A stretch of 64,000 bases of DNA from Methylovorus sp. MM2 (GTDB taxonomy: Bacteria > Pseudomonadota > Gammaproteobacteria > Burkholderiales > Methylophilaceae): positions 434,001 through 498,000 of the forward strand of contig NZ_LXUF01000001.1 in NCBI RefSeq assembly GCF_001648895.1, in the 5' to 3' direction. The translations under genes and the position numbers were made by a program. Shown here piece after piece: positions 5,251 to 32,045 of this stretch (positions are counted from its first letter, which is position 1; each line of letters opens with the position of its first letter). Below the pieces are notes generated by a model. That model was not told where the DNA came from. It searched no databases and was given only the letters and a program-made list of their open reading frames with translations.

Positions 5251-5270
5251 ATTTATAAGTTGATTGATTT

Positions 5271-8576: not shown

Positions 8577-10454
8577 ATGGAGATGAGCAAACTAAAAGTA
8601 GCTCTTGGTGTTGCAGTTGGTATGACCATGGCGCTGCCAATGGTTGCATCAGCAGCAGCTGATCAAGAAACTGCTATGGCTAACCCAGCTAACTGGGCAC
8701 ACCCACGTGGTCAACACAATAACCAAGGTTATAGCGCATTAGCTGAGATCAACAAGAGCAATGTTAAGAACCTTAAAACTGCATGGACATTCGCTACTGG
8801 TGTAAACCGTGGTCATGAAGGTTCACCAGTCGTCGTTAACGGTGTTATGTATGTTCACACAGCATTCCCAAACAACGTTTACGCGCTTGATCTAAACGAC
8901 AACCAAAAAATTATCTGGTCTTACTTCCCTAAACAAGATCCATCAGTTCAAGCAGTATTGTGCTGTGACAACGTAAGCCGTGGTCTTGGTTTTGGCGATG
9001 GCAAGATTTTCTTGCAACAGAACGATGGTGTTTTAATCGCTCTTGATGCTAAGACAGGTGCTAAAGTTTGGGACGTTAAAGTTAACGATCCTAAAGTTGG
9101 TGCTACTAACACAAACGCTCCACACGTAATCAAAGACAAAGTTCTGACTGGTTGCTCTGGTGCTGAATTCGGTGTTCGTTGCTTTATCGCTGCTTATAAC
9201 CTGAAAGATGGTTCATTGGCATGGAAAGCATACAGCACAGGCCCTGACGCTGAAGTATTGATCGGTGCTGACTTCAACAAAGAAAATCCACAATACAGCG
9301 CGCTTTCAGTATATGAAGACGTAAACGGTGGTAACAAAGAAGGTGGCTCTTTCAAACCTATCGCTAACGACAAGTTAGTTATTGGTCAAAAAGAACTGGG
9401 CACACGTACATGGCTCAAGCCACAAGCTGTTAAAAATGGCTGGGAACACGGTGGTGGTTCTGTATGGGGCTGGTGGCCGTATGATCCTAAGTTGAACCTT
9501 GTGTACTACGGAACTGGTAACCCATCTGTTTGGAACCCAGACGTACGTCCAGGCGACAACAAATGGTCTATGACAATTTTTGCACGTGACTTGGATACAG
9601 GTATTGCAAAATGGGGTATGCAAATGACTCCACATGACGAATGGGATTACGACGGTATCAATGAAGTCGTTCTATTCGAAAAAGGTGGTAAGAAATATGC
9701 ATTCCACACTGATCGTAACGGTTTCAACTACACTTTCGATGCTGTTAACGGTTCATTGTTAGTTGCTGAAAAAGCACACCCATTCATTAACTGGGCTACT
9801 AAAGTTGATCTGAAGACTGGTGTTCCAACTAAAGATGCTAAGTACTCAACTCACCAAGACTACAATGCTAAGGGTATCTGCCCAGCTGCGTTGGGTGTAA
9901 AAGACCAACAACCAATGGCCTACTCACCACGTACTGGTAACATGTACATTCCTCTTAACCACGTTTGCATGACATACGAGCCAGTTGAGTCTAAGTATGT
10001 TGCTGGTCAACCATGGGTTGGTGCTACTCTGACCATGTTTGCTGGTCCTGACGGTGTTATGGGTGGTTTCGAAGCTTGGGATCCAATCAAGGGTAAAGCA
10101 GTTTGGTACAACAAAGAGAAGTTCTCTGCATGGGGTGGCGTATTGGCTACTGCATCAGACCTAGTGTTCTACGGAACACTTGAGCGTGACTTCAAGGCTG
10201 TTGATGCTCAAACTGGTAAATTGCTCTGGAAACAACAAGTTGGTTCAGGCGTGATCGGTAATGCATTCACATACAGCAACAAGGGTAAACAATACGTTGG
10301 CGTACTGTCCGGTATCGGCGGTTGGGCTGGTGTAGCGATGAACTTGGGTCTGGATAATGATACCGACGCTCTTGGTGCCGCTGGTGGTTACAAAGAGTTA
10401 ACTAAGTGGAACGCTGCTCCTGGCGGCGGTGCTCTGAACATATTTAGTCTGTAA
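8577..10454 (+). CDS. xoxF: Lanthanide-dependent PQQ methanol dehydrogenase XoxF
   Basis: Periplasmic quinoprotein that oxidises methanol, and in some forms formaldehyde, using PQQ and a lanthanide ion. The 625-residue protein has a signal peptide ending near Ala-Ser-Ala-Ala-Ala, eight tryptophan-docking propeller blades, and the adjacent-cysteine disulfide Cys129-Cys130 that stacks on PQQ. The decisive motif is Asp357-Tyr-Asp359: the catalytic Asp is followed two residues later by the extra Asp that marks XoxF enzymes; calcium-type MxaF has Ala there. Family residence suggests the XoxF4 type of Methylophilales. GGAG lies before the start. Codons are strongly biased to AAC, GGT, GCT, CGT and CCA, a sign of very high expression. 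No mxaI small subunit is nearby. A strong terminator follows. Confidence 0.96.
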   Translation: MEMSKLKVALGVAVGMTMALPMVASAAADQETAMANPANWAHPRGQHNNQGYSALAEINKSNVKNLKTAWTFATGVNRGHEGSPVVVNGVMYVHTAFPNNVYALDLNDNQKIIWSYFPKQDPSVQAVLCCDNVSRGLGFGDGKIFLQQNDGVLIALDAKTGAKVWDVKVNDPKVGATNTNAPHVIKDKVLTGCSGAEFGVRCFIAAYNLKDGSLAWKAYSTGPDAEVLIGADFNKENPQYSALSVYEDVNGGNKEGGSFKPIANDKLVIGQKELGTRTWLKPQAVKNGWEHGGGSVWGWWPYDPKLNLVYYGTGNPSVWNPDVRPGDNKWSMTIFARDLDTGIAKWGMQMTPHDEWDYDGINEVVLFEKGGKKYAFHTDRNGFNYTFDAVNGSLLVAEKAHPFINWATKVDLKTGVPTKDAKYSTHQDYNAKGICPAALGVKDQQPMAYSPRTGNMYIPLNHVCMTYEPVESKYVAGQPWVGATLTMFAGPDGVMGGFEAWDPIKGKAVWYNKEKFSAWGGVLATASDLVFYGTLERDFKAVDAQTGKLLWKQQVGSGVIGNAFTYSNKGKQYVGVLSGIGGWAGVAMNLGLDNDTDALGAAGGYKELTKWNAAPGGGALNIFSL

Positions 10455-10609: not shown

Positions 10610-11503
10610 ATGTTCAAAAAACTGTCGATGTATATACTCCTTGGGGGAGTTCTTACTAGTACCTCTTTGTTTGCGGAGACGCTAGAAATTCCAACCATTA
10701 ACCCTGATGAAGGACGTGTCGGGGAGGTCAGGCGAGTTGCCGACCCTACAGAATTCAAGGTATGTGCAGACCCTGACAACCTGCCATATTCCAATGTCAA
10801 GCAAGAAGGTTTTGAAGACAAGATTGCTGCGCTGATTGCAGACGATATGGGTAAGAAGCTCTCATTTGCATATGCCTACTATCGCCAAGGTTTCTTAAGA
10901 AACACGATCAACGCATATCGCTGTGATGTCATCATGAGTACAACATCAGATAATGATGCTCTGCTAACCTCGAAGCCTTATTACAGATCTACGCATGTAT
11001 TCGTGTACCGCAAAGACAGCGGTTACAATATTAAAGATTGGGATGCGCCAGATTTGCATCAAGCCGTTATCGGTATTGTGGGTGAAGGTCCCGCTAGCAG
11101 ACCGCTGGCTGACCATGGTCTAATGGGTAACGCAAGGCCATATCGTCTACAGCGCGACTTGAATTTTCCACCTGGATATATGATCGATGACTTGGTCAAA
11201 GGTGACATCGATGTTGCCATTATGTGGGGACCTATTGCAGGATATTATGCAAAACAGGCTAAAATACCGCTCGTTGTCGTGCCGATTCCTGAGTACGAAG
11301 ATGTGAATGTGCATGGTAAAGAGAGTTGGAATATCTCGTTGGCTGTACGTAAAAAAGATAAAGAGCGCTTGGTTGCTATTCAGGAAGTGTTAGATCGTCG
11401 CCAAGATGATATCCTGAAAATATTAGATGAGTATGGCGTTCCTCACATGCCCGTTGTTGTTGGAGACAGCATCGAGAAAAAAGCACGAGAAAACCGCAAG
11501 TAA
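10610..11503 (+). CDS. xoxJ: XoxJ, quinoprotein-associated periplasmic binding protein
   Basis: A periplasmic solute-binding-fold protein always found beside methanol dehydrogenases. Proposed roles are activation of XoxF or help with PQQ/metal loading; no transporter partner is known. The 297-residue protein has a signal peptide (cleavage near Leu-Phe-Ala-Glu, about residue 22) followed by a two-lobed extracellular SBP domain with the family's early Lys-Val-Cys-Ala-Asp-Pro-Asp-Asn-Leu-Pro-Tyr-Ser-Asn motif and a single interior Cys in Tyr-Arg-Cys-Asp-Val. An AGAGGAAGAG stretch lies before the ATG. It follows xoxF after a terminator and precedes xoxG by 136 bases, the standard xoxFJG order of this family. 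Confidence 0.92.
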   Translation: MFKKLSMYILLGGVLTSTSLFAETLEIPTINPDEGRVGEVRRVADPTEFKVCADPDNLPYSNVKQEGFEDKIAALIADDMGKKLSFAYAYYRQGFLRNTINAYRCDVIMSTTSDNDALLTSKPYYRSTHVFVYRKDSGYNIKDWDAPDLHQAVIGIVGEGPASRPLADHGLMGNARPYRLQRDLNFPPGYMIDDLVKGDIDVAIMWGPIAGYYAKQAKIPLVVVPIPEYEDVNVHGKESWNISLAVRKKDKERLVAIQEVLDRRQDDILKILDEYGVPHMPVVVGDSIEKKARENRK

Positions 11504-11639
11504 GTAGCTGTCTTGTGTTGATTAATGTTTGTAAGTCGTCAACTAACAAACTGGTGAGTCGTTATATGTAATATAGACTGGTCATGTGGTTTGGCATGAT
11601 CAGCTAAAGCTTAATTTTTTACAAACCTTAGGAGATGAC

Positions 11640-12173
11640 ATGTTAGGCAATAAAGCAGTAAAAATGACGTTATTAGCTTCAATGCTCGCTTTGGGGAGTT
11701 TGACTCTTTCAACGCAAGCAAGTGCTGAATGTAAGTTCGTTTCAACGAAAGACGGTAGCCCATTGCCGATCCATGCGGTTGATACTGATACCCCAGAAGC
11801 AAAATCTTTTCTGGAAACCTGCGTAAATCCATACACTAAGTTATATGCAGATAATCCAGATCAGGCAAAAGCTGGTAAAAAGAAATTCGGTTATTACTCA
11901 TGTACACAATGCCATGGTGCTAATGCAGGTGGTCAAGTAGGTCCAAGCATTACCGATGAGCGCTGGCAGTATGCAAAGCACATTACGGACAAAGGTATGT
12001 TTGAGACGATTGCTGGTGGTAGTAACGGTGGTATGTTCGCATGGCACCAACAAGTTTCAGGTAACCCTGACCTTGTACCAACAGATGATATCTTGAAGAT
12101 CATTGGCTGGTTGCGTACAGAGTACAAGGGCGGTGGCGACACTCCTTGGTTGAATGAGCAGCCTGTTAAGTAA
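11640..12173 (+). CDS. xoxG: XoxG, cytochrome c electron acceptor of XoxF
   Basis: A periplasmic single-heme cytochrome c (cL-like) that takes electrons from the PQQ of XoxF. I chose the ATG at 11640 because TTAGGAG sits just upstream and the protein then begins with a proper signal peptide (cleavage near Ala-Ser-Ala-Glu, about residue 29); a longer in-frame start at 11586 has no ribosome-binding site. The mature protein carries one heme motif Cys88-Thr-Gln-Cys-His92, and Met in the Gly-Gly-Met-Phe-Ala-Trp-His segment is a plausible sixth ligand. At 177 residues it fits the XoxG group. It ends at a terminator. Confidence 0.92.
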   Translation: MLGNKAVKMTLLASMLALGSLTLSTQASAECKFVSTKDGSPLPIHAVDTDTPEAKSFLETCVNPYTKLYADNPDQAKAGKKKFGYYSCTQCHGANAGGQVGPSITDERWQYAKHITDKGMFETIAGGSNGGMFAWHQQVSGNPDLVPTDDILKIIGWLRTEYKGGGDTPWLNEQPVK

Positions 12174-17052: not shown

Positions 17053-18513
17053 TTATTCAGTTTGGTGAAAGCGAGGTAATTCGAGTTCTATCAATGTGCC
17101 GCCGCCTTCGCGTGCTGAAAAAGAAATACTCCCGGATAGCGATTCGCATACCTTGAATGCAAAAGGAATCCCTAATCCTGTGCCAAAACGTTTGGTCGTA
17201 GGTCCCGGGCTGATCGCGTGTGGATCAGGGGTGAAGGGCATGCCGGGGCCTCGATCAGCGATCATGATGCGCACTGATTCTGGGGCTATATCCGCATGTA
17301 CTTCGAGTTTTGAGTAATTGGGTATCGCTTCTATAGCATTTAGCAGCAAGTTATACAGTGCTTGTTCTAACAGGCTTTCATCCGTGAGCATGTGGTCATC
17401 ATGTTTTTCCCACGCGGGTAATTCTAACTGTATGGATTTTTCCAGCAGTTTTTGCTGCAAGGGCACAAGGGCGCCATCGATAATGTGGCGTAGCGAAGTT
17501 TGGCTTGGCTGAGGTTTTAGGGGGTGCAGATAAGCTAGTAGAGAGCTTGTCCAGCGTTCAAGGCCATCTACAGAGCGCATGATGCCTTGTAGGGCTTCAC
17601 GCGTATCTTCATCTTGCTCTGTGCTGTCTGCGACTTGTGCAGTTGCGCGGATGCTGGCTAAGGGATTACGGATGTTGTGGGCGAGCATGGGAACCAGCAG
17701 GCCTAAGGCAGCTTGCTTCTCTGTCCGCACCAGTGCATCCTGGCTGCGAGCCAGTTCCCTTGCCATGTGGTTGATTGCACTTGATAGGGTCAGCAGTTCG
17801 GCGGCACCTTCTTCAGGCACGGTATGTTCAAGCCTGCCTGCACTGATCTCGTTGGTAGCGTGCAGTATGCGGTTGATCGGTTTGACGATGGCGCGCTTAA
17901 GAAAGATACGTGAGAATAGAAATAGCAAGGTCGCTAAAGCAATGGGAATCGATAAAACAAGAATAGAACGTTGTTTGGCTTCATCCAGTTTTTGTTTGAG
18001 TTCTTGCTGTTTGAGCGTCAGCAGCTTTTCTGCACGAGCCGAGATCGCTTCATAGCGGTTAAATACACCGGATTCCAAACCTGTATTTAAGGATTGTTGT
18101 AAGGCTTCCTTCGAAAGTTTTTGCTGGTTATGGAATATTGAGCTGGTTTCCATGACGAAGGCTAAATAGCTGGCCTTCAATTCGTTGACAGCATCGAGCT
18201 CCTCTTGACCGACTGCCAGTTCGGTCAAATTGTTAAAATGGTTACGGATTGATACGGTATACGCGTCATATTCATCTTCCGCATCAGCATCCTTAAGGAA
18301 GAATGCATCGAATAATTCTTTCATTTGGCGATATAAATCACCGCGTGTTTGTTGGATCTCTTGAATGAGTAGATTGATCCGTTGTGACTCATGCGATGCC
18401 CGATCCCACATCTGGATACCGATACCGCCTGCCGTCCCTGCAAGCGCTACCAGTAAGATAAACGCTAGCTCATGGATTAACAGCAGGTCTTTGAGGGATT
18501 TTCTAGGGCGCAA
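17053..18513 (-). CDS. Membrane sensor histidine kinase
   Basis: A 486-residue sensor kinase. It has one membrane helix (about 13-34), a helical periplasmic sensor region (about 35-185) rich in Gln/Glu heptads, a second helix (about 187-205), a HAMP linker (to about 258), a HisKA dimer helix with the phospho-acceptor His279 in Met-Leu-Ala-His-Asn-Ile-Arg-Asn-Pro-Leu-Ala-Ser, and an ATPase domain with N-, G1- (Asp-Arg-Gly-Pro-Gly-Met) and G2-like (Gly-Thr-Gly-Leu-Gly-Ile) boxes. The start is TTG at 18513, five bases after the tonB stop, so translation is probably coupled. No response regulator gene is in the window. What it senses is unknown; its place beside tonB and the quinoprotein genes suggests an envelope signal. 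Confidence 0.88.
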   Translation of the reverse strand: MRPRKSLKDLLLIHELAFILLVALAGTAGGIGIQMWDRASHESQRINLLIQEIQQTRGDLYRQMKELFDAFFLKDADAEDEYDAYTVSIRNHFNNLTELAVGQEELDAVNELKASYLAFVMETSSIFHNQQKLSKEALQQSLNTGLESGVFNRYEAISARAEKLLTLKQQELKQKLDEAKQRSILVLSIPIALATLLFLFSRIFLKRAIVKPINRILHATNEISAGRLEHTVPEEGAAELLTLSSAINHMARELARSQDALVRTEKQAALGLLVPMLAHNIRNPLASIRATAQVADSTEQDEDTREALQGIMRSVDGLERWTSSLLAYLHPLKPQPSQTSLRHIIDGALVPLQQKLLEKSIQLELPAWEKHDDHMLTDESLLEQALYNLLLNAIEAIPNYSKLEVHADIAPESVRIMIADRGPGMPFTPDPHAISPGPTTKRFGTGLGIPFAFKVCESLSGSISFSAREGGGTLIELELPRFHQTE

Positions 18514-18518: not shown

Positions 18519-19286
18519 TTACTCTTCAAGTTTGAATGGTATAGGCACAATAATGGTAAACGCCCGTCCACGTAAAGTGTCCGGTGGCGGTGGCAAAGGT
18601 AGCGATTTTTTTACCATCTCTAATGCTTGCTGGTCTAGTACGGCATAGTTACTCGAATGTATCACTTTGGTTGAGATGATATCGCCATTGCCATTTATTT
18701 GTATCTCTATTGTGACTTCCCCTTCCCATCCTCGCATTTGTGCCATTCGGGGGTACTGCTTATATTTGGATATTGCATCGAATAAGAGGCTCCCGTAGCG
18801 ATTGCGGGCAGCCTCTATCTCATGGGTGCTGGGGCCTGTAGGCTTAGGTGGCTCAGGCGCTGTGACAGGCGTTGGCGACGCTGCGGGTGAGGCGGTTACG
18901 CTAGGCGCATCGGCTTTAGGTGCAGCTGTCATGACCGGTGGTGCAGCACTTTCGGCAGGAGGTTCCTGCGATTTCTGCGGCGATGGCGCAATGGTAGGTT
19001 TGAGCGTGGGCTTTGGTTCAGGGTTATCCGGCTTGAGCTTAGGTTTCGGGGTTTCAGGCAGTGGTTCCGGAGGCGCTTCTGTCTGTGGCTCTGACGTTGT
19101 GGCGGTCGATTCTGTTTGAGCCGATTGGGGCGCGGCTAGCTCCACTGTTAATATCTCAGGCGGCTTTTCCTCAAACTTGATATTGGGAACAAAGCACAAC
19201 ACCACGGCATGCAAGATGATGGAGATGATTAAGGGCTTGGTAAATCCGTGATTACCCGTGGTTTGATTGTTATTAAAAGGTGCCAA
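18519..19286 (-). CDS. tonB: TonB-family energy transducer
   Basis: Links the inner-membrane proton motive force (through ExbBD) to outer-membrane receptors. The 255-residue protein has one N-terminal membrane helix (about 18-36, with the Ser-x3-His pattern seen as Ser-Ile-Ile-Leu-His) and a Pro/Glu/Lys-rich periplasmic spacer (about 50-150, many Pro-Lys and Pro-Glu repeats). A C-terminal TonB fold (about 165-255) contains Tyr-Pro-Arg-Met-Ala-Gln-Met-Arg-Gly-Trp-Glu-Gly. No exbB or exbD is adjacent. It forms an operon with the sensor kinase and lies between two receptors in the window, the Fiu-like and the PqqU-like one, either of which it may power. Confidence 0.9.
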   Translation of the reverse strand: MAPFNNNQTTGNHGFTKPLIISIILHAVVLCFVPNIKFEEKPPEILTVELAAPQSAQTESTATTSEPQTEAPPEPLPETPKPKLKPDNPEPKPTLKPTIAPSPQKSQEPPAESAAPPVMTAAPKADAPSVTASPAASPTPVTAPEPPKPTGPSTHEIEAARNRYGSLLFDAISKYKQYPRMAQMRGWEGEVTIEIQINGNGDIISTKVIHSSNYAVLDQQALEMVKKSLPLPPPPDTLRGRAFTIIVPIPFKLEE

Positions 19287-19433: not shown

Positions 19434-20357
19434 TTACTCCCATTCCAGCGCAGGGTATAGCATATTCACATTTCGCCGATTGACGATATCAAACAGCACC
19501 CATTTGCTCTTTTCTGAGGTAGCTGCTGTATCCATGGTTTTTTCCATCATCTCTCCTTTTTTAATGCTTGCGCGAATATCGTTCAGTAATATATTCAGGT
19601 ACTGCTGTTCTTTATCTAACGCTGCTTTGACATCCTTGGTTGGCGTACCATGCCCGGGTACGACTTGTTTTGCGTCTACTGACTTCAGCTGATCAATCAC
19701 GGATAGCCAACCTTTGATATCGCCATCAACGGATGGCGTGCGCTCGATAAAGAGTAGATCGCCAGTCCACAATGTCGCTGTTTTGCTATCCAGCACGGTG
19801 ATATCTGTATTCGTATGTGCGGTGACATAAGCCGTCAAAATAAGTGGCCTACCCCCCAAATCAAGCTTCAGTGTTTTTTCTACCGTTTGCGTAGGCTTAA
19901 CCACCTGATTGTTCTGTTCACTAGCAGCAAAATCTGCGCCTAGCCATTCTTTATTTAAGCGCAGATAAGCATCTTTGCGTAACTCCATCGCATTGGCTAA
20001 TTTTGTGTGACCGACAAATGCCGGATGGTCGTCCACAAATGCTTCATTGCCTAAGATGTGATCCGGATGGATATGGGTATTGATGACATAGAGGATGGGC
20101 AAAGGCGTGATGTTTTTAATGGCTGCGCGTAGCTGTTTGCCAGTCTGTAGGCTGCCGCCAGTATCGATGACTGCGACGCCTTTCTTGCCCACAATAAAAC
20201 CTATATTGCTGATATCGCCGTGATAGCCTTCTGACAGGTCTTCGTGCACACCTTGATGTACGTAGACCCCGCTCGCGATCTCATTGACCGAAAAGCTATC
20301 TGCAAGCGCTGAGGTTGATAACAGCAGCAGCGTAATAAAACGGATAATCAATGTCAT
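19434..20357 (-). CDS. Quinoprotein relay system zinc metallohydrolase 1 (MBL fold)
   Basis: A periplasmic metallo-beta-lactamase-fold hydrolase related to SoxH and found with PQQ dehydrogenases. The start is the ATG at 20357, preceded by AGAGGAG; a further in-frame start 30 bases upstream would put charged residues before the signal peptide. Cleavage is likely after Ser-Ala-Leu-Ala (about residue 19). The zinc-binding motif His95-Ile-His97-Pro-Asp99-His100 is complete, with a later His (Thr-Ala-His-Thr), an Asp in Trp-Thr-Gly-Asp, and His in Val-Pro-Gly-His-Gly. It is divergent from the beta-propeller gene, sharing a 220-base regulatory gap. Substrate unknown; the SoxH likeness suggests a thioester or sulfur adduct carried by the SoxYZ-like protein nearby. 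Confidence 0.9.
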   Translation of the reverse strand: MTLIIRFITLLLLSTSALADSFSVNEIASGVYVHQGVHEDLSEGYHGDISNIGFIVGKKGVAVIDTGGSLQTGKQLRAAIKNITPLPILYVINTHIHPDHILGNEAFVDDHPAFVGHTKLANAMELRKDAYLRLNKEWLGADFAASEQNNQVVKPTQTVEKTLKLDLGGRPLILTAYVTAHTNTDITVLDSKTATLWTGDLLFIERTPSVDGDIKGWLSVIDQLKSVDAKQVVPGHGTPTKDVKAALDKEQQYLNILLNDIRASIKKGEMMEKTMDTAATSEKSKWVLFDIVNRRNVNMLYPALEWE

Positions 20358-20400
20358 GATCGAGCTTCTCCTCTCGCCTCTTTGCAAGCAGGCATGTTTT

Positions 20401-20427
20401 TTGCGCTCTTGCTAAAATTCAGCGCAA
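20401..20427. promoter_or_regulatory. Inverted repeat in the divergent metallohydrolase/beta-propeller gap
   Basis: TTGCGCT (20401-20407) and AGCGCAA (20421-20427) are perfect seven-base arms 20 bases apart centre to centre, a spacing that suits a dimeric regulator on two helical turns. It lies 44-70 bases before the metallohydrolase start. Operator function is inference. Confidence 0.4.
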
Positions 20428-20577
20428 TTTCTTATCAGCCCATTATGACATTTTAATCTGCATGTTCAATGCGTTTTACCTTATACAATAATGGAACTTG
20501 AAACGGATGTGAGCGTCTGAACGATAGTCTTACTCAATTAAGATGATGTTCAATAAAAAATGATTGGAGAAGGAATA

Positions 20578-21531
20578 ATGCAAGAAAACCTAAAACTCAA
20601 ACTATTGGCGGCCTGTATCGGCGTGATGTTTTCCGCCCCCCTCTTGGCAGCGCCAATTGCTTATTCCACAAACGAAAAAGCAGGCACGCTTTCTGTGATC
20701 GATACACAAAAGGATGAAGTGATCGATACGTTTAAAGTCGGTGAGAAACCACGTGGTGCGGCTGTTAGCCATGATGGAAAGTTTATCTTTGTCAGTGACC
20801 AGCCAAAAAATGCATTGTTAGTCATTGATTTGGAAAATAAATCTGTCGTTGATACGATTAAATTAGAGGCCTCACCTGAAGGCGTGAGTATCTCCGCTGA
20901 CGGTAAATGGATTGGTGCCGCTAACGAAGAAGATAACAGTGTCTCAGTGATTGATACTACGACCCACAAACTAGCCTACAAAGTCAAAATGCAAGGGGAT
21001 AACCCGGAGCATGCGGAATTCAGCCCCAATGGTAAATGGATGTATGTGAGTGCTGAAGAATCAAAATATGTTGATGTCGTTGATCTGACAAAGCGTAAAT
21101 CGATCAAGCTAGTTGAAGTGGGTAACCGTCCACGCGGCATTGGTTTCTTGCCAGATAGCTCACGTGTCTATGTAGCAAACGAGCTTTCAAGCACAGTGTC
21201 TGTACTGGATACCAAAACGCATAAAGTGATTGCTAGTATTCCTGTCGGTTTGCGTTCTAATGGCGTAAAAGTGCTGCCTGATGGCAAAAAAGTGTATATT
21301 TCCAATGGTGGCGATGGTACTTTATCCGTGATCGATACCGCGACAAATAAAGTGACTTCAACCATCACTGTCGGTAAGCGCCCATGGAATATGGACATTA
21401 CCCCTGACGGCAAGAAATTGTATGTTGCCAATGGTAAATCCAACTCGGTCTCTGTCATTGATACAGCAACGGATACGGTGCTAAAAGAAGTGACGGTAGG
21501 TGATACGCCTTGGGGTGTGTTTGTACGTTAA
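20578..21531 (+). CDS. PQQ-dependent catabolism-associated YVTN beta-propeller protein
   Basis: A periplasmic seven-bladed propeller of the YVTN family found with PQQ alcohol dehydrogenases; its molecular role is unproven. The ATG at 20578 is preferred over one 18 bases upstream because GAGAAGGA sits just before it. The 317-residue protein has a signal peptide ending near Leu-Leu-Ala-Ala-Pro, followed by about seven repeats of Val-Ser-Val-Ile-Asp-Thr ... Val-Gly-x-x-Pro-x-Gly ... Asp-Gly-Lys. It is 65 bases upstream of the cytochrome b561 gene and probably in the same operon. Such propellers often serve as docking scaffolds for redox partners. Confidence 0.9.
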   Translation: MQENLKLKLLAACIGVMFSAPLLAAPIAYSTNEKAGTLSVIDTQKDEVIDTFKVGEKPRGAAVSHDGKFIFVSDQPKNALLVIDLENKSVVDTIKLEASPEGVSISADGKWIGAANEEDNSVSVIDTTTHKLAYKVKMQGDNPEHAEFSPNGKWMYVSAEESKYVDVVDLTKRKSIKLVEVGNRPRGIGFLPDSSRVYVANELSSTVSVLDTKTHKVIASIPVGLRSNGVKVLPDGKKVYISNGGDGTLSVIDTATNKVTSTITVGKRPWNMDITPDGKKLYVANGKSNSVSVIDTATDTVLKEVTVGDTPWGVFVR

Positions 21532-21596
21532 TTGAAATATCCGCAAAGTGTCACTTATAGTCACTACAATACTTTGCGGCTTGTTAAGGTAATTGC

Positions 21597-22196
21597 ATGA
21601 CAGCTACCAATCGCTATACCAACACTGCAATCGTGCTGCACTGGCTTATCGGCTTTGGCATACTGGCGATGTTTGCTTTAGGTTGGTACATGAGCGACCT
21701 ACCTAAAGAATCAGGCAAGCTCGCAAGTTATGACCTATTCGATCTTGGTGTCTATACCGTGCAATTGTCTGAGGCCATTTCTCCGCGCACCTTTTATTTC
21801 AATTTGCATAAATCAGTAGGTTTTAGCTTACTTTTTCTGATTATGTTCAGGTTGTATTGGCGATTCACGCATCAACCGCCTGCACTGTTGAGCAGTATGA
21901 AAAGTTGGGAGAAAACGCTTGCCCATGCCGGGCATCACACATTGTATTTGCTTATGCTGGTCATGCCTCTTACAGGGCTAATCATGACAATCTATAGTAA
22001 ATATGGTTTGAAATGGTTTGATATCCCTCTGATCGGTGGATTAGATAACGCACCATTGAGAGATCTTTTTAAAGAAGCGCATGAGCTTGTAGGCCTGATA
22101 TTTATTGCAGTGATTGCCTTGCACATTGCGGCTGCGTTAAAGCATAAGATCATCGATAAAGATGAGACCTTGAAGCGCATGTCATTGCATGGCTGA
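21597..22196 (+). CDS. Cytochrome b561-type membrane cytochrome
   Basis: A four-helix inner-membrane diheme cytochrome b that moves electrons between periplasmic donors and the quinone pool. The 199-residue protein has hydrophobic helices at about 10-30, 66-86, 107-127 and 160-182. Histidines suit heme ligation: His15 in helix 1, His in Asn-Leu-His-Lys in helix 2, His-His near the start of helix 3, and His in Ala-Leu-His-Ile-Ala-Ala in helix 4. It is about 20 residues longer than E. coli CybB because of a loop between helices 1 and 2. Its operon position after the PQQ-associated propeller makes it a likely electron-transfer partner of a quinoprotein route. Confidence 0.88.
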   Translation: MTATNRYTNTAIVLHWLIGFGILAMFALGWYMSDLPKESGKLASYDLFDLGVYTVQLSEAISPRTFYFNLHKSVGFSLLFLIMFRLYWRFTHQPPALLSSMKSWEKTLAHAGHHTLYLLMLVMPLTGLIMTIYSKYGLKWFDIPLIGGLDNAPLRDLFKEAHELVGLIFIAVIALHIAAALKHKIIDKDETLKRMSLHG

Positions 22197-22213
22197 TGCT
22201 AGAAAAGTATGAA

Positions 22214-22246
22214 AAAGAAAGGCGCCTGTTTGGCGCCTTTCTTTTT
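22214..22246. terminator. Bidirectional terminator between cytochrome b561 and the SoxYZ-like gene
   Basis: Perfect 13-bp stem AAAGAAAGGCGCC / GGCGCCTTTCTTT with a short loop, flanked by A-rich and T-rich ends. It ends both convergent transcripts. Confidence 0.92.
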
Positions 22247-22251
22247 GGGCG

Positions 22252-23055
22252 TTAATTCTTTATGTTTAATTCATGTGAAAATTTACCGCCCTCATTGTCT
22301 TCAGCTTTGGCTTCAAGTAAGCCGGGCTTTGCGGGAATAAAATCAAAACGCAAGTAAGGGTCTTCACTTGTACCGACACCAAAATCTACATCCATCAACG
22401 GCTGCTGGTTATAAGTGAAATTGACTTTATTGATATAAAAGGCAGGTTTGAAACCTTGCGAGACAAGGTCTCGTTGTAAGCCAGTAAACATCGGGTGTTT
22501 GATGATAAACGTAGCAGGGGTTATGTCACCGAATTTGACAGGTGATTCGACTTGCAGTTTGATCTTGCCCGCCGCCGCGCGTATCGCTGTGTCATCACCA
22601 TCTACTGCACCGCCACAGCCACCTGAAGCGCGTATCGTTGTCGAGGCCACATAGAGTTTGCCATCAGCTGTTTCGCCTACTACGTGAATGAAAGAGTCCG
22701 TTTCTAGGCGAATACGTGTAGAGAGTTGAAGTTTGCCTAGTGCCTCATGCAAATGATATGTCGCTGCTAGTGGAATAGGGTTGGCATCGACGATGACGTA
22801 AACGTTTTTGATCGCATCGGCATCTGTCTGCGATTTATCTATCGTGAGCGTGACAGGAACCTGCGCACCACTTTCTGCACGACGAGGGCCTGTGATTTTC
22901 ATGAAATCGGCATCTGCTATCGTGCGCTTGGCAAAGAATGCCTCTTTGACTACAGGCCAGAGTTTATCTGAAGCTTCTGCCGCAGCTCTATTGCTGAAGC
23001 ATGCCAGTAATACACTAACTATCAGCAACTGATAGATGAATGATCTTTTTTGCAT
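22252..23055 (-). CDS. Quinoprotein dehydrogenase-associated SoxYZ-like carrier (fused)
   Basis: A periplasmic fusion of SoxY-like and SoxZ-like domains. In sulfur oxidisers SoxYZ carries its substrate on a cysteine at the tip of a swinging Gly-Gly-Cys-Gly-Gly arm. Here the same Gly-Gly-Cys147-Gly-Gly motif ends the SoxY-like part (about 30-155) and runs on into a SoxZ-like domain (about 165-267). The start at 23055 is chosen by GAGGAG just upstream; the longer frame has a charged, non-signal extension. The signal region contains Leu-Leu-Ala-Cys, which is only a poor lipobox, and a better cleavage site follows (Ala-Ala-Ala). It lies downstream of the PqqU-like receptor on the same strand. The carried substrate is unknown. 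Confidence 0.9.
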   Translation of the reverse strand: MQKRSFIYQLLIVSVLLACFSNRAAAEASDKLWPVVKEAFFAKRTIADADFMKITGPRRAESGAQVPVTLTIDKSQTDADAIKNVYVIVDANPIPLAATYHLHEALGKLQLSTRIRLETDSFIHVVGETADGKLYVASTTIRASGGCGGAVDGDDTAIRAAAGKIKLQVESPVKFGDITPATFIIKHPMFTGLQRDLVSQGFKPAFYINKVNFTYNQQPLMDVDFGVGTSEDPYLRFDFIPAKPGLLEAKAEDNEGGKFSHELNIKN

Positions 23056-23208
23056 GATGCTCTTCTCCTCAATGCGGGCTGATTTTTTGATTTGCAGCTT
23101 TTTATTCTGAATATGATAAATCCAGCTGAGCCTTCTTGCTACCAATACTTATGTACTGTGTGGCTAATCAATAGAGATTAAGACATCATGGCGATTCACA
23201 TGTCCTAT

Positions 23209-25296
23209 TTAGAATCTGTAATTGGCATTTAAGCCAATGAGCCAGTTTCTGCCTGCGGCAGGTTCAAAGGAACGCCCATTTGTATAATCATTAAGTTTGA
23301 CTGAGCCGATGTAATCTTTATCGAATATGTTCTCAATGCGGGCATATTCACTAAAGCGCCAATTCGCAAGCTTCTGCTCAAAACCTGCTCGAATATTGAA
23401 TATCGTATATGAAGGGGCGGAGTCTGTATTTAAGTCATTCACATAAGACTTACTGTTGTGCCGTGCCTCGAAAGCTGTACGAAAACCTGTGGGCGTATGT
23501 TTCCATGCGGCCTCACCGTATATTTGAGTATGGTAAGTGCCTGGAATGACATTGCCAGCTTCAATCAAGCCCGAGTTGTTAGTGAAATCTGAGTCGAACT
23601 TTGCGTTCAGCAATGTATACGCGCCGAATAAGGTTATATTGTAGGGAAGCTTAGATTCAATCGAGGCCTCTGCACCGTTTCGCTTTGTTTTATTCGCATT
23701 GGTATAACTGGTAATGCCACTCGAAACATTGCTGACGATAATTTCATCATCGGTCAATGTTTTGAATATGCTTAGATTTGCAATAGTGTTATCGGAAAGA
23801 AACGCTTTTGCCCCAATTTCCATATTACGACTTTCGCTAGGCTTTAGACCTAAGTTGGGCGTGCTAGTCGCGGCTGCATTACGATAAGCTACTTCGACAA
23901 AAGTCGGTGTTTCAAAGCCTTTGCCATAGTTTGCATATAGGTTAAACAGGGGCGTGACTTTCCATATTGCACCAAATACGGGTGTAGTTTTTTGATAGGT
24001 AAGATTGCCGCTGTTATCACCGCCTACCGCCAACAGATTGTCATCAATTTCTAGACGTATTTTTGTGTGGCGTACACCTGCATGTAAATCAAGATTTTCC
24101 AATACTGACCATTTCGCTTGGGCATATTGATCAAAGTTCTTGGCAGTGTCTTTCTCGTTACGGTTTAATACATTAATTGGCGCACCTCCCAGCAGAATAT
24201 TCGTGTCTGTCCTGTCATCCGTTGATTTTCCGTAAGCTGTGCCTAGGCTGAAGGTATAGGGTTTTTCAAGGAAGCTACCTTTGTTATCCCAGCGGATATC
24301 CGTGCCATAAAACTCACGTGCAATCTTGCTCGCACGTGCATTCGTGCCAAGGGCATTGGTTGAAAGTATCTGCAGATTATCTCTTGTGCCTACATAACTA
24401 ATAAATGTGAGTGAATTATCGGAGTTAATGGCATGCTCAAGATTGAACCCCACTTGCGTATTAGATCGGCTAACGCGAGTATTAGCATTGATTGCAGCGG
24501 GAACCACACTTTTGGGGTTGCTAAAAGCCATTGCCCTTGTTGACCCTAGTGGGTCGTCCGCATCCTGATCAAACCAATTGACCAACGTAGTGAGCTTGGT
24601 ATCCTCATTTAGGTTGATCTTGAATTTTGCCGTGCCTTGTTCTTTCTGGTTTGCGCTGTGGTCACGGTAGCCATCTGACTTATAATTAGAATAGTTCACC
24701 AGATATTCAATTCCCTCAGATGTGCCAGCAGCACGAACTGATTCCTTTTGCGTACCATAACTACCAAACATGACGCCACCTGAAATCTCAGGGGTCTTTG
24801 GTGCATTCTCGGTTAGCATTTGTACGACACCACCGGAAGAGTTGCCGTAAAGTGCAGAGAAGGGGCCGCGCATCACTTCGATACCTCTCACAACATCAAG
24901 ATCGACATTGCCCGGTTGGCCTTGGCCATCAGGCATGGTGAGCGGGATGCCATCAACATATACACGTACACCACGTACACCAAATGCAGAACGGGCGCCA
25001 AAACCGCGAGTGGATATCTGTGGGTCTTGCGCCATTTGTGTTCGATTTTGTGCAGTGATGCCGGGAACGCGAATCAAGCTTTCAGATAAGGTCATGCCTA
25101 ATTGACCATCCTGAATCTGATCTTTTCTGACTAGATCGATTGCGACTGGGAGATCAAAACTCTTTTGCCCGATACGTGTGGCGGTGACGACCACTGGCGC
25201 GATGACTGATGTGTTTTCTTCATCGGCTGCAAAAGCATTATTTGCAACGCTAAAAGTACCCAATATTGCGATTGGTAAAAGTTTCTTGGCCAGCAT
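23209..25296 (-). CDS. pqqU: TonB-dependent receptor resembling the PQQ receptor PqqU (YncD)
   Basis: A 695-residue outer-membrane receptor with a signal peptide (cleavage near Ala-Phe-Ala-Ala), a TonB box (Ala-Pro-Val-Val-Val-Thr-Ala) and a plug. The plug holds a run characteristic of E. coli YncD, now named PqqU: an Arg-Gly-Phe-Gly-x-Arg-Ser segment, Val-Tyr-Val-Asp-Gly-Ile-Pro-x-Thr-Met-Pro-Asp-Gly-Gln-Gly-Gln, and Arg-Gly-Pro-Phe-Ser-Ala-Leu-Tyr-Gly-Asn. The barrel also matches (Gly-Arg-Gly/Gly-Lys-Gly-Phe-Glu-Thr-Pro-Thr, Thr-Asp-Asp-Glu-Ile, and the closing Gly-Arg-Asn motif). PqqU imports PQQ in E. coli. The neighbourhood of PQQ-associated proteins makes PQQ the best ligand guess here; lanthanophore or siderophore transport remains possible. 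Confidence 0.85.
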   Translation of the reverse strand: MLAKKLLPIAILGTFSVANNAFAADEENTSVIAPVVVTATRIGQKSFDLPVAIDLVRKDQIQDGQLGMTLSESLIRVPGITAQNRTQMAQDPQISTRGFGARSAFGVRGVRVYVDGIPLTMPDGQGQPGNVDLDVVRGIEVMRGPFSALYGNSSGGVVQMLTENAPKTPEISGGVMFGSYGTQKESVRAAGTSEGIEYLVNYSNYKSDGYRDHSANQKEQGTAKFKINLNEDTKLTTLVNWFDQDADDPLGSTRAMAFSNPKSVVPAAINANTRVSRSNTQVGFNLEHAINSDNSLTFISYVGTRDNLQILSTNALGTNARASKIAREFYGTDIRWDNKGSFLEKPYTFSLGTAYGKSTDDRTDTNILLGGAPINVLNRNEKDTAKNFDQYAQAKWSVLENLDLHAGVRHTKIRLEIDDNLLAVGGDNSGNLTYQKTTPVFGAIWKVTPLFNLYANYGKGFETPTFVEVAYRNAAATSTPNLGLKPSESRNMEIGAKAFLSDNTIANLSIFKTLTDDEIIVSNVSSGITSYTNANKTKRNGAEASIESKLPYNITLFGAYTLLNAKFDSDFTNNSGLIEAGNVIPGTYHTQIYGEAAWKHTPTGFRTAFEARHNSKSYVNDLNTDSAPSYTIFNIRAGFEQKLANWRFSEYARIENIFDKDYIGSVKLNDYTNGRSFEPAAGRNWLIGLNANYRF

Positions 25297-25468: not shown

Positions 25469-26749
25469 CTAAATGATGCCTTCAAGAATCTGTACCTGAA
25501 CGGTGGCACCAGCTTCCAGATTACCCGTGTCTGCATGCAGTACGATAAAACAATTAGCCGTAGACATGGAACTGAGTATGCCAGAGCCTTGATTGCCGGT
25601 TGGTTTTACTTTCCAGATGCCGTCATCATCAGTAAATAATATGCCCCGCTGAAATTCTGTACGGCCTTTGAGTTTTCTGATCTCTTCGGTGCAACTTACA
25701 TTCAACAATGGAAGTGGGGTGGGCGATGGTTGCCCCATCAAGTAGAGCATGGCTTCCCGCACAAATTGGTAGAAAGTCACCATGACTGCGACAGGATTTC
25801 CGGGTAACCCAAAATAGTGGGCTTGACCTACTTTGCCATAGGCTAATGGTCGGCCAGGCTTCATGGCAATCTTCCAGAAAACGACTTGTCCCATTTTGGC
25901 GAGCAGCTCTTTCATGAAGTCAGCTGCACCTACAGATACGCCGCCACTGGTAATGATGACATCTGCTGCCGCTGCGGCATTCACCAAGGTTTGCTCTAGC
26001 ATCTCAGGGTTATCGCCGACAACGCCCATATCGATCACTTCAACGCCTAAGCGCGTTAACATGCCATAGAGTGTGTAGCGGTTACTGTCATACACTTGCC
26101 CTGTTTTTAACACTTGGCCAATGCTGACCAACTCATCGCCTGTAGAGAAAAAAGCGACCCGCAATTTACGATACACATTAATTTGACCTACCCCAAGCGA
26201 AGCAAGCAGGCCCAGATCAGCGGCTTTGATGACATGCCCAGCCCCCAATACCACTTGGCCGATCTTCAGGTCTTCACCTGCATACCGTACATTCATCCCT
26301 TGTTTTGGGTTTTCGCTAAAGCTGATAGATTCTTCTGATATGGTGACGCGCTCTTGCGCGATGACGGTATCTGCCCCTTTAGGCAGTACGGCACCAGTCA
26401 TGATACGAACACATTCACCCTGAGCAATTACACCTTCGAACGCATTGCCAGCAAAAGCGGTGCCGATGATGTGCAAACGGGATTCACCTGTTTTGGCGAC
26501 ATCATTTGCATTGAATGCATAACCATCCATCGCCGAGTTATCGTGGTTGGGTACGTTGGATTCGCTAATGATATCTTCTGCCAGTACACGGCCTAAAGCG
26601 CTATGTAAGGTGATATTTTCTTTTTCTGATACAGGGCTGAGATACTCGCGTATATATTTGCGTGCCTGATTCACCTGCATGGAGTTAGGATCGTAATCAT
26701 CCTGACAGCTGGCATTGTTTACGAGTTCGGAAATCGATTTTGTACTCAT
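25469..26749 (-). CDS. moeA: Molybdopterin molybdotransferase MoeA
   Basis: Inserts molybdate into adenylylated molybdopterin to form the molybdenum cofactor. The 426-residue protein has the MoeA domain order: an N-terminal linker with Ser-Ala-Met-Asp-Gly-Tyr-Ala (near residue 70), the central MoCF domain with Gly-Asp-Glu-Leu (near 207) and Thr-Ser-Gly-Gly-Val-Ser-Val-Gly (near 268), Lys-Pro-Gly-Arg-Pro-Leu-Ala-Tyr-Gly and Leu-Pro-Gly-Asn-Pro-Val-Ala, and a C-terminal beta domain. It is the last gene of moaA-mobA-mobB-moeA on the minus strand, with a nine-base gap to mobB. Confidence 0.95.
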   Translation of the reverse strand: MSTKSISELVNNASCQDDYDPNSMQVNQARKYIREYLSPVSEKENITLHSALGRVLAEDIISESNVPNHDNSAMDGYAFNANDVAKTGESRLHIIGTAFAGNAFEGVIAQGECVRIMTGAVLPKGADTVIAQERVTISEESISFSENPKQGMNVRYAGEDLKIGQVVLGAGHVIKAADLGLLASLGVGQINVYRKLRVAFFSTGDELVSIGQVLKTGQVYDSNRYTLYGMLTRLGVEVIDMGVVGDNPEMLEQTLVNAAAAADVIITSGGVSVGAADFMKELLAKMGQVVFWKIAMKPGRPLAYGKVGQAHYFGLPGNPVAVMVTFYQFVREAMLYLMGQPSPTPLPLLNVSCTEEIRKLKGRTEFQRGILFTDDDGIWKVKPTGNQGSGILSSMSTANCFIVLHADTGNLEAGATVQVQILEGII

Positions 26750-26758
26750 ATCTTTAGG

Positions 26759-27304
26759 TTAATTTTCTGCGTTCGATGTGTCTTTGAGCCAGTGCTGGAT
26801 AAAGTCAGCAACAATAGGGGGATCATTTAAGTCAAGTATTGGTAATGGAGTATGAATGGCATCATCACATGCAATAGCAATGATGTCTTGATCGGTGTTC
26901 GCAAGTAAGGGCATATTCAAGCTTGGGCGATGGATCTCTATCTTGGCGATATGCGCATACTTAAAACCTTCCACCAGTATCAAGTCTACCAAACTCATAT
27001 CTATATTCGCTATCAGTTCGGGCAGGTCTGGTTCATGGGCTGCATATTTTTCGGTTCGACTAAGCTCTGTCATTAGTGCCCAGCGTTGGCTTGAGGCTAC
27101 CAATGTTTGCACGGCACCTGCTTCGCGTAAGCGGTAGCTATCTTTACCCGGCTTATCGATATCAAAATTGTGATGCGCATGTTTAATGATGGATGTACGA
27201 ATCCCAAGTTTGGCGAGCTCGGGAATCAACTTGGTTAGTAGCGTAGTTTTCCCCATGCCGCTACTTGCGGCGCAAAAGCCGAGGATGGGTAGCGCATTAT
27301 TCAT
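26759..27304 (-). CDS. mobB: Molybdopterin-guanine dinucleotide biosynthesis protein MobB
   Basis: A GTP-binding helper of MobA in formation of the guanine dinucleotide cofactor. The 181-residue protein has a P-loop Ser-Gly-Met-Gly-Lys-Thr-Thr near residue 16, His-Ala-His-His-Asn-Phe-Asp-Ile-Asp-Lys-Pro-Gly-Lys-Asp (near 42), and Leu-Val-Glu-Gly-Phe-Lys, all standard for MobB. It lies between mobA (18 bases upstream) and moeA. Confidence 0.93.
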   Translation of the reverse strand: MNNALPILGFCAASSGMGKTTLLTKLIPELAKLGIRTSIIKHAHHNFDIDKPGKDSYRLREAGAVQTLVASSQRWALMTELSRTEKYAAHEPDLPELIANIDMSLVDLILVEGFKYAHIAKIEIHRPSLNMPLLANTDQDIIAIACDDAIHTPLPILDLNDPPIVADFIQHWLKDTSNAEN

Positions 27305-27322
27305 TCAGGGATATGGCTCGGC

Positions 27323-27898
27323 TTAAGTATTTTCTAGCACCGATAGCTCATCTTTTGTATTGATGTTGCTAAAGGCTCGTAGGTTATCGTCGAATGCAAC
27401 GGTGACATATTGCAGTGAGTTTTGCCAGGTTTCAACTTTACGTCCACCATTGTTGAGATAGGTTTCCAGGCTAGGTATCAAATGCCTACGATATAAACAG
27501 AATACAGGCTGTAACTGGTCGCCTGTTTTTGCAACGGCCAAGTCTGCATCATGTCTGGTTAATGCATCCATCAATCGATCAGCAAGATTGTTTGGCAGTA
27601 GTGGAGCGTCGCATGGCACAGTGAGAATATAGGCATCTTTACTGCTCAGCATGCCTTGATGCACGCCTGCCAAGGGGCCTGAAAAATCCGGCATGTCGTC
27701 TTCAATGACAGGGTAACCCAAAGTCTGATAGCGCTCTATCTCGCGGTTCGCGCTAATCATCACGTGATCTACCTGTACAGCCAGCCTTTGGATCACGTGC
27801 GCAATCATGGGTTTTTGGTTGAAGATAACCCAGCCTTTATCTACACCACCCATCCTGCTGCCTTTGCCGCCTGCTAGAATTAATCCGGTAATGCTCAT
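27323..27898 (-). CDS. mobA: Molybdenum cofactor guanylyltransferase MobA
   Basis: Transfers GMP from GTP to the molybdenum cofactor, giving the dinucleotide form used by DMSO-reductase-family enzymes such as formate dehydrogenases and nitrate reductases. The 191-residue protein has the nucleotidyltransferase start Leu-Ala-Gly-Gly-Lys-Gly-Ser-Arg-Met-Gly-Gly-Val-Asp-Lys-Gly, the metal-binding Asp in Val-Pro-Cys-Asp-Ala-Pro, and the usual length. It lies 38 bases after moaA in the cofactor operon. Confidence 0.95.
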   Translation of the reverse strand: MSITGLILAGGKGSRMGGVDKGWVIFNQKPMIAHVIQRLAVQVDHVMISANREIERYQTLGYPVIEDDMPDFSGPLAGVHQGMLSSKDAYILTVPCDAPLLPNNLADRLMDALTRHDADLAVAKTGDQLQPVFCLYRRHLIPSLETYLNNGGRKVETWQNSLQYVTVAFDDNLRAFSNINTKDELSVLENT

Positions 27899-27936
27899 GA
27901 CTTAAGCTTGAAATACGCAGCAAGGGGCATCAACAT

Positions 27937-29004
27937 TTAGCCGCCCGTCATCGACATAAAACGAATCACCGATGGGGTTGCCCGCTTGATATCAAAATCG
28001 TGACCTTTCGGTTTGATCGTCATGGAGTTAACAATCGCATCAATAAGCGGTTGATCATCATGCGGGTATTGCCTTAACAGCGGCATGAGGTCTATTTTGC
28101 TTTCTTGCCCCAAACACAGGTAGAGCTCGCCCTTGCAGGTGATGCGCACCCGATTGCATGACTCACAGAAATTATGGCTATGGGGCGATATAAACCCAAC
28201 GCGCGTATTTGTATGCGGTATGCGCCAATAGTGCGCCGGCCCACCTGTAGATTCGGTACTGCTGATCAGGTTGTGATGATCTTTTAATAACTTCAACGTG
28301 GCATCATTGCTGACATAGGTGCTATCTCTTGTATGGTCGACTTCTCCCAACGGCATCTCCTCTATGTAGGAGATATCGATTTCTTGCGCAATAGCAAAGT
28401 CTAATAACGCCAATGCCTCATCATCATTAATGCCGCGCATCAACACCGTATTGAGTTTGATATTCTCGAAGCCTGCTTGCTTTGCAGCTTCAATCCCCCG
28501 TAATACTTTAGAGAGTTCACCTACGCGTGTGATTTTACGAAAACGGGTTTCGTCTAGACTATCTAAGCTGATGTTGATACGTTTTACGCCCGCTTTTTTT
28601 AGCGCCTGCGCCTGATGTTCAAGTTGTGAGCCATTCGTCGTCACCACTAATTCACGCAACCCGGGTAGGTGACCAACCTCTTCAAATAACCATAATGCAT
28701 TCTTGCGCACGAGGGGCTCACCACCAGTGATCCTTACCTTGCTCACTCCCAAGTCTACAAATACTTTCACCAAGCGGGCCGATTCTTCAAGCGATAACAC
28801 TTCATCTCTCGGCAGAAATGTCATGTCTTCACTCATGCAATACACGCAACGGAAATCACAGCGATCAGTGATCGAGAGGCGAATGTAATCCACCTTGCGA
28901 CCAAAGCTGTCAATCAGTGTTGCTGGCGGCATTACATTTTTGCGCATGGCAAAGCGTTTATCATGTGAGTTAAGGCTTTCAATTTTATGACTTTCAACTT
29001 GCAT
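27937..29004 (-). CDS. moaA: GTP 3',8-cyclase MoaA
   Basis: The radical-SAM enzyme that starts molybdenum cofactor synthesis from GTP. The N-terminal cluster motif is Cys-Asp-Phe-Arg-Cys-Val-Tyr-Cys. A second iron-sulfur cluster is formed by Cys-Glu-Ser-Cys-Asn-Arg-Val-Arg and a later Cys, and the protein ends in the essential Gly-Gly. The start is uncertain: a TTG at 29010, the ATG at 29004 used here, and an ATG at 28947 are all in frame, with no strong ribosome-binding site at any. The gene is divergent from modE across about 98 bases. The other moa genes are not in the window. Confidence 0.93.
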   Translation of the reverse strand: MQVESHKIESLNSHDKRFAMRKNVMPPATLIDSFGRKVDYIRLSITDRCDFRCVYCMSEDMTFLPRDEVLSLEESARLVKVFVDLGVSKVRITGGEPLVRKNALWLFEEVGHLPGLRELVVTTNGSQLEHQAQALKKAGVKRINISLDSLDETRFRKITRVGELSKVLRGIEAAKQAGFENIKLNTVLMRGINDDEALALLDFAIAQEIDISYIEEMPLGEVDHTRDSTYVSNDATLKLLKDHHNLISSTESTGGPAHYWRIPHTNTRVGFISPHSHNFCESCNRVRITCKGELYLCLGQESKIDLMPLLRQYPHDDQPLIDAIVNSMTIKPKGHDFDIKRATPSVIRFMSMTGG

Positions 29005-29102
29005 GTACAATCAGAAATATACTTTTCTTGATGACTTGTTTATTTAAGACAGCTTGGATCGTATTTAATTTAATAACCTGATATTTTTCTTGGTGTGTAT
29101 TC

Positions 29103-29450: not shown

Positions 29451-29541
29451 TTTATCCCTAGCTAGTCTGTTTGGGCTAGCCCATTTAAGTCACTCTGTTT
29501 AATCACGCTTAACCATAGAATTTAGAATCCTAGGATTCAGA

Positions 29542-29577
29542 TTGACATTTATCGTTATTCCCATTTAAATATAGCGA
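29542..29577 (+). promoter_or_regulatory. Promoter with ModE-like operator upstream of the porin-modABC genes
   Basis: TTGACA (29542-29547), 17 bases, TTAAAT (29565-29570) form a good sigma-70 promoter. TCGTTAT (29552-29558) and ATAGCGA (29571-29577) make an inverted repeat, six of seven matching, that resembles the TCGTTATAT half sites of ModE. The repeat covers the spacer and the -10 region, the expected place for repression when molybdate is plentiful. Confidence 0.6.
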
Positions 29578-29645
29578 AATTTCTGCCATAGGATTTCTAC
29601 ATGGCGAAACTGCATTTAAATAATAGATTGATTCAAGGGGATATT

Positions 29646-31151: not shown

Positions 31152-31226
31152 TTAGCGTAATTTTTGGTTACAGACTTATGCCGTTCTAGCGCGGCATTTC
31201 CTAACATAGTGAATCAGGAAGTGAAT

Positions 31227-31994: not shown

Positions 31995-32045
31995 TAGCGG
32001 TAGAAATAACTACGGCAAAATTAAGCACATCATAAAAGCTGTTAT

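Follow-up and report, generated by a model that had tools for sequence, protein, structure and literature searches.

A Fused SoxYZ-Like Carrier and a SoxH-Like Hydrolase Accompany PQQ Alcohol Dehydrogenases in Methylophilaceae and Beyond

The Locus and Its Genes

The window analyzed here is a stretch of 64,000 nucleotides from Methylovorus sp. MM2 (contig NZ_LXUF01000001.1), whose genome comprises 2.42 Mb and whose closest named relatives are Methylophilaceae. We followed up five neighbouring genes at positions 19434-25296, which an earlier note had described as a single periplasmic relay combining sulfur-oxidation-like parts with quinoprotein dehydrogenases. Open reading frames (ORFs) and family profile scores confirmed all five genes, as well as the two parts that recall sulfur oxidation, a fused SoxYZ carrier (TIGR04557) and a SoxH-like hydrolase (TIGR04559). 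What stands of the single relay is this carrier-hydrolase pair; the propeller is not a core part, and the receptor most probably serves uptake of pyrroloquinoline quinone (PQQ) across the outer membrane. The genes are split by strand, with receptor, carrier and hydrolase on the minus strand and propeller and cytochrome on the plus strand:

19434..20387, minus strand: SoxH-like dinuclear-zinc metallo-beta-lactamase (MBL) hydrolase ("quinoprotein relay system zinc metallohydrolase 2", TIGR04559), likely start ATG 20357
20560..21531, plus strand: exported YVTN beta-propeller, accessory, TIGR03866-related but below cut-off
21597..22196, plus strand: b561-type membrane cytochrome (PF01292, 115.9 bits)
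22252..23145, minus strand: fused SoxY-SoxZ-like carrier (TIGR04557) with the arm cysteine in GGCGG, Cys147 counted from ATG 23055
23209..25296, minus strand: PqqU-type TonB-dependent receptor (match to E. coli PqqU structures plus signature residues)

Carrier and Hydrolase

The carrier is a full member of TIGR04557 (244.8 bits, cut-off 140) with both Pfam halves on one chain, SoxY at 68-177 and SoxZ at 203-292, which match solved SoxY and SoxZ structures, respectively. Neither of the profiles for true Sox proteins is reached (SoxY_true 79.8 versus 125 bits, SoxZ_true 63.1 versus 76 bits). The GGC of the arm is invariant in all 64 carriers compared. The earlier numbering of its cysteine as Cys147 holds for a count that starts at the internal ATG; in the ORF starting with TTG, this is residue 177. 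The predicted fold is that of SoxY linked to SoxZ, and the cysteine is placed in a loop modelled at lower confidence. In a family sample of 60 Methylophilaceae genomes, 53 encode a carrier over the cut-off.

The hydrolase is a full member of TIGR04559 (relay metallohydrolase 2; 403.6 bits, cut-off 280). Its dinuclear MBL ligand set (HxHxDH / H / D / H) is complete, and the ligands H105, H107, D109, H110, H191, D210 and H246 are retained in 39-40 of 40 homologues. AlphaFold predicts an MBL fold (pLDDT 92), whose nearest folds (8d2z, chlorothalonil dehalogenase, B2 and B1 lactamases, alkylsulfatases) give no pointer to the substrate; neither glyoxalase II nor persulfide dioxygenase is among the fold matches listed. 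Hydrolases over the cut-off were found in 56 of the 60 family genomes, and the four without one belong to a single genus.

Co-occurrence with PQQ Alcohol Dehydrogenases

Occurrence was determined in a sample of 200 genomes of the phylum, calling a true fused carrier at 195 bits or more. Use of the TIGR04557 cut-off alone was rejected, since weak hits above it (150-180 bits) in genomes lacking a PQQ alcohol dehydrogenase (PQQ-ADH) proved to be separate SoxY and SoxZ frames at the 11 loci fetched. Fused carriers are present in 23 of the 200 genomes, and all 23 encode a PQQ-ADH over the cut-off, as do 41 genomes overall and 18 of the 177 carrier-free ones. Hydrolases over the cut-off were detected as type 2 in 17 genomes and as type 1 in seven, one genome having both, and their union is the same set of 23; carrier and hydrolase are both missing from the remaining 177 genomes. 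The carrier-hydrolase pair, hereafter the module, is the functional core. The earlier note had linked these genes to quinoprotein alcohol dehydrogenases, a tie that is supported, and named frequent occurrence of the module without such an enzyme as one finding that would refute its scheme; none of the 23 module genomes lacks one.

Lanthanide-type (Ln-type) dehydrogenases are encoded in 22 of the 23 module genomes versus nine of the 18 module-free PQQ-ADH genomes (p=0.001; the phylum genomes are related to each other, so that p-values here and below overstate independence). One module genome, G113, shows only calcium-type enzymes, which makes lanthanide use a tendency and not a rule. In the window, a rare-earth-type dehydrogenase set at 8577-12173 lies 7 kb upstream of the five genes:

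8577..10454, plus strand: XoxF, rare-earth-type methanol dehydrogenase (closest solved relative XoxF 6dam, E=6e-206)
10610..11503, plus strand: XoxJ periplasmic binding protein (from ORF reading and position between xoxF and the cytochrome gene)
11586..12173, plus strand: cytochrome cL-like XoxG (TIGR03872, 86.6 bits, below the cut-off of 147.8)

XoxF contains the DEWDYDG motif with the lanthanide aspartate and vicinal cysteines, and XoxJ homologues are also present in module loci of relatives. Including this XoxF, the window genome has four TIGR03075 PQQ-ADH genes over the cut-off.

The strict confinement of the module to PQQ-ADH genomes and the enrichment of Ln-type enzymes in them would be expected if the module helped to mature the dehydrogenase or to maintain its redox state (vicinal disulfide, insertion of metal or PQQ). 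In such a role, proposed by others (PMC12997753), the carrier cysteine and a CXXCW protein would be the thiol partners. The vicinal cysteine pair, however, is found in nearly all PQQ-ADHs compared, module-free genomes included, Ln-type enzymes occur in nine module-free genomes, and the hydrolase would have no obvious role. Published genetics bear on this point as well. In M. extorquens AM1, a screen for lost XoxF-dependent formaldehyde production yielded more than 600 mutants, with 28 genes hit at least four times (PMC7391723). It recovered pqq, ccm, lut and xoxFGJ genes, but META1p1703-1705, reported as the M. extorquens homologues of the module (PMC12997753), are not listed (PMC7391723). Within the limits of the screen, this disfavours maturation and fits a step after alcohol oxidation. 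We regard a maturation role as decidedly unlikely.

Hydrolase Subtype and Dehydrogenase Class

Dehydrogenase classes were called from vicinal-cysteine and metal motifs; the labels ethanol-type and methanol-type refer to motif and similarity to XoxF and not to activity. An ethanol-type (PCCDV) enzyme is encoded in all seven type-1 genomes and in none of the 16 type-2-only genomes (Fisher p=4e-6), and a methanol-type (MDH/XoxF-type) enzyme in 16 of 17 type-2 genomes and in none of the six type-1-only genomes, the latter being mostly from one family, so that the counts are not independent. The two hydrolase types are set apart at two residue positions only, in a comparison of few sequences.

The genome with both types, G202, comes from a different family than the type-1-only genomes and carries two separate modules. 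Its two pairs are unrelated (identities of 26% and 29%, the former between the carriers). The type-1 pair lies beside an ethanol-type ADH and is nearest to the type-1 pairs of family f10 (approximately 40%), and the type-2 pair is nearest to other type-2 pairs (65-74%), showing that carrier-hydrolase pairs travel as units. A correlation of carrier and hydrolase distances (r=0.88) was set aside as confounded by common descent. As the hydrolase tracks the alcohol class, the group on the carrier arm may well derive from the alcohol.

The CXXCW Protein and Sulfur

A rhodanese-like CXXCW protein is over the cut-off in 21 phylum genomes, all within the 23 module genomes. Together with the SoxYZ ancestry and the invariant arm cysteine, it is what speaks for scavenging of reactive sulfur, in which the arm would bind sulfite, thiosulfate or persulfide and the CXXCW protein or b561 plus the hydrolase would clear it, shielding PQQ from sulfur nucleophiles. 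This idea is in print, along with the observation that thiosulfate inhibits methanol growth of Hyphomicrobium (PMC12997753). It does not explain why the hydrolase subtype should track the ADH class, and 18 PQQ-ADH genomes do without the module. Moreover, the CXXCW partner had no match in the 60 Methylophilaceae genomes by the same search that was positive in other genomes, and the Hyphomicrobium pmpAB genes beside a Sox(YZ) fusion and SoxH are unresponsive to thiosulfate (PMC11582611). Taken together, we consider sulfur scavenging unlikely as the role of the module.

PqqU Receptor and Conserved Neighbourhood

Judged from its sequence, the fifth gene encodes an outer-membrane PqqU-type TonB receptor for PQQ uptake and not a periplasmic part of a relay. 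Its nearest solved structures are those of E. coli PqqU (6v81/9c4o, E ~1e-132). The published PQQ-binding signature of PqqU consists of an aromatic residue (Y/F/W) at position 99, R304 and R365 (PMC12124388); F105, R305 and R362 of the window receptor align to Y99, R304 and R365. In 25 receptors, both arginines are present in all and the phenylalanine in 24, the remaining one showing a gap. While the window receptor thus shares this signature with E. coli PqqU (YncD), K274 and R536 of the latter are replaced by V and I in the alignment, and the NCBIfam equivalog NF041535 is not reached (539 versus 1200 bits), nor is it by any Methylophilaceae receptor.

The receptor gene lies upstream of the carrier gene on the same strand, with a gap of 67 bp. 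Of 25 scored locus records, which include some genomes counted twice, 22 have a PqqU-type receptor no more than 250 bp from the carrier, and in 19 of these the two share a strand. Two further genes outside the original range belong to the conserved neighbourhood, a TonB gene beside the hydrolase, conserved in 16 Methylophilaceae loci, and a histidine kinase family present in 11:

18519..19286, minus strand: TonB energiser (TonB C-terminal domain)
17053..18513, minus strand: membrane histidine kinase (kinase core plus membrane segments, by ORF reading)

The recurring order in Methylophilaceae is pqqU, carrier, b561, hydrolase, TonB, kinase, xoxGJF. Directly beyond the pqqU gene, the window contains a molybdenum cofactor and molybdate uptake cluster (25469-33825: moeA, mobB, mobA, moaA, modE-like, porin, modA, modB and modC, names by ORF reading), the cofactor genes of which are kept in approximately 16 relatives. 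At 2939-5954, ORF reading indicates another TonB receptor, this one siderophore-type, with a PiuC/PKHD-type hydroxylase after it.

PQQ reacts with thiols. This general knowledge and the proximity of the receptor led us to add a rival of our own to the two taken from the literature (PMC12997753): the arm cysteine could bind the C5 carbonyl of PQQ, imported or damaged, and the hydrolase or b561 would free usable PQQ. PqqU was seen near the module only in Methylophilaceae, however, and at none of the loci outside the family; even within it, the receptor was not found in 17 of 60 genomes, although the carrier is over the cut-off in 53. The window genome also encodes PqqE, arguing that it makes its own PQQ and that the receptor serves recapture or scavenging and is not the sole source. 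Since the hydrolase subtype in addition tracks the ADH class, a PQQ adduct carrier appears most improbable.

b561 Cytochrome and Propeller

The b561 and hydrolase genes are conserved neighbours in divergent orientation. The two are directly divergent within 400 bp at 15 of the 18 and 28 of the 31 b561-bearing loci (two locus sets), and this adjacency holds even at loci where the carrier has moved. Six histidines are invariant in 50 of 50 homologues.

The propeller does not reach TIGR03866, the PQQ-associated propeller of the PedA2 kind (234 bits, cut-off 287). Its position between b561 and hydrolase is restricted to the window, L090 and L222 (L090 and L222 probably being one genome), and it was ruled out as a core part since it is missing at this place in most relatives. 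A b561-propeller pair recurs outside Methylophilaceae, in Pollutimonas (L258:365-2025) and Candidimonas (L267:713-2248), where the two adjacent genes are located near xoxJ-xoxF-hydrolase-carrier.

Variant Carrier Loci

Several further arrangements were observed. At three loci (L086, L087 and L088), another type of carrier, with GGGCGGG or GGGCGGA, has no adjacent hydrolase and stands next to a pair of propellers, xoxJ and a second xoxF. In Caballeronia and Paraburkholderia, the carrier is flanked by two SoxH-like hydrolases (L246:9854-12716, also L249, L254, L265 and L272); the one second hydrolase tested scores approximately 202 bits to types 1 and 2, under both cut-offs. At 28 loci outside Methylophilaceae, an exported protein of approximately 115 amino acids is encoded near the carrier, mostly convergently (for example L283:11871-12230, minus strand). 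It has four conserved cysteines (..YVFACM..NG....LEKCSCSID...RCF), the one member tested had no Pfam or NCBIfam match, and it is a candidate for a further module component. Several loci of Burkholderiales have, close to the module, genes of the methanopterin pathway for formaldehyde (beta-RFAP synthase).

A Possible Aldehyde-Thiol Relay

The observations agree best with a role in handling the aldehyde that PQQ alcohol dehydrogenases make, and the chemistry suggested in the earlier note is plausible in a softened form, of which we infer every chemical step. The periplasmic core would consist of two proteins, the swinging-arm cysteine carrier and the dinuclear-zinc hydrolase. Aldehyde from a periplasmic PQQ-ADH, formaldehyde in the case of XoxF, acetaldehyde and others in ethanol-type versions, would react with the thiol of the arm to give a thiohemiacetal. 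The dehydrogenase, able to oxidise aldehyde hydrates, would turn this adduct into a thioester, and the hydrolase would release the acid (formate here) and regenerate the free thiol. In the SoxYZ/SoxB system, substrate on the carrier arm is processed and then hydrolysed off, and by analogy the same may apply here. The b561 cytochrome would exchange electrons between module and quinone pool, and PqqU plus TonB would recapture the cofactor.

The earlier wording of a formaldehyde relay should read aldehyde, since the carrier also accompanies ethanol-type enzymes; the relay as such may stand in an auxiliary role. A role as the main periplasmic route for formaldehyde was not upheld. The fae mutant of M. 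extorquens does not grow on methanol with lanthanum and accumulates formaldehyde (PMC6414531), so that any route through the module is minor. That the pair is an auxiliary aldehyde-thiol relay, a safety valve beside the main one-carbon route, is a reasonable possibility that falls short of an even chance. The more specific proposal of a periplasmic protein-thiol analogue of the glutathione route, in which an arm-held aldehyde is oxidised to a thioester and cleaved by a zinc hydrolase matched to the alcohol class, is possible and somewhat doubtful.

Several observations weigh against an aldehyde-thiol relay. Formaldehyde remains toxic to fae mutants of AM1, and extracts of AM1 cells grown on methanol with lanthanum show no formaldehyde oxidation (PMC6414531). 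Random barcode transposon sequencing of Pseudomonas putida without lanthanide gave minimal phenotypes (PMC12997753), and we know of no published adduct, activity or mutant phenotype for the module. The presence of a CXXCW partner in 21 of the 23 module genomes is a hint of chemistry involving sulfur or thiol redox. The matching of subtypes, with its counts from mostly one family on the type-1 side, could reflect a protein partner rather than a substrate. Finally, in one genus (g14), four streamlined 1.3-Mb Methylophilaceae have a diverged carrier under the cut-off, with the arm cysteine retained in the one member inspected, and lack the hydrolase.

Relation to Known Systems

The pair belongs to the NCBIfam "quinoprotein relay system" (TIGR04557/TIGR04558/TIGR04559, with TIGR03865 for the CXXCW protein and TIGR03866 for the propeller), as shown by carrier and hydrolase scores over the curated cut-offs and by co-occurrence with PQQ-ADHs; we found no published function for TIGR04557 and TIGR04559. 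The Methylophilaceae version differs in that the CXXCW protein was not found (0/60), the window propeller is below the cut-off, b561 is a fixed divergent neighbour, and PqqU and TonB are added. The ped cluster of P. putida also has a carrier and a SoxH-like hydrolase (PP_2677, PP_2678) beside a PQQ-ADH (PMC12997753). Its enzymes are the ethanol-type PedE/PedH, with a type-1 hydrolase in similar loci of family f10, whereas type 2 and XoxF are found here.

With thiosulfate oxidation by Sox (SoxYZ, SoxB, SoxXA, SoxCD), the module shares the GGCGG arm cysteine on SoxY/SoxZ folds and a metallohydrolase nearby; in the window, however, the carrier is fused and below the SoxY and SoxZ cut-offs, and an MBL hydrolase takes the place of SoxB. 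Elsewhere, the window genome encodes SoxY and SoxZ as an unfused pair (L091:10006-10793, contig C11) beside bepA and moaC. Among the genes scanned beside it, no soxB, soxXA or SoxCD was recognised; a genome-wide search for them was not made. If the proposed scheme is right, the glutathione formaldehyde route (Gfa, AdhI/FlhA, FghA) would share with the module a thiol adduct, its oxidation to a thioester and hydrolysis. That route is cytosolic and NAD-linked and uses a small thiol, whereas the module would be periplasmic and would employ a protein thiol and a quinoprotein.

Significance

The pair is real and widespread and belongs to families already named, the window being one more member in a family-specific setting. 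It is near-universal in one major family of methylotrophs and also occurs in methanotrophs, other methylotrophs and pseudomonad-type ethanol oxidisers. Subtype matching and the AM1 screen narrow the question to what occupies Cys147 during growth on alcohol. A sulfur role, if true, would explain how PQQ enzymes survive under reactive sulfur; an aldehyde-thiol relay, if true, would change the view of how formaldehyde is controlled in periplasmic alcohol oxidation.

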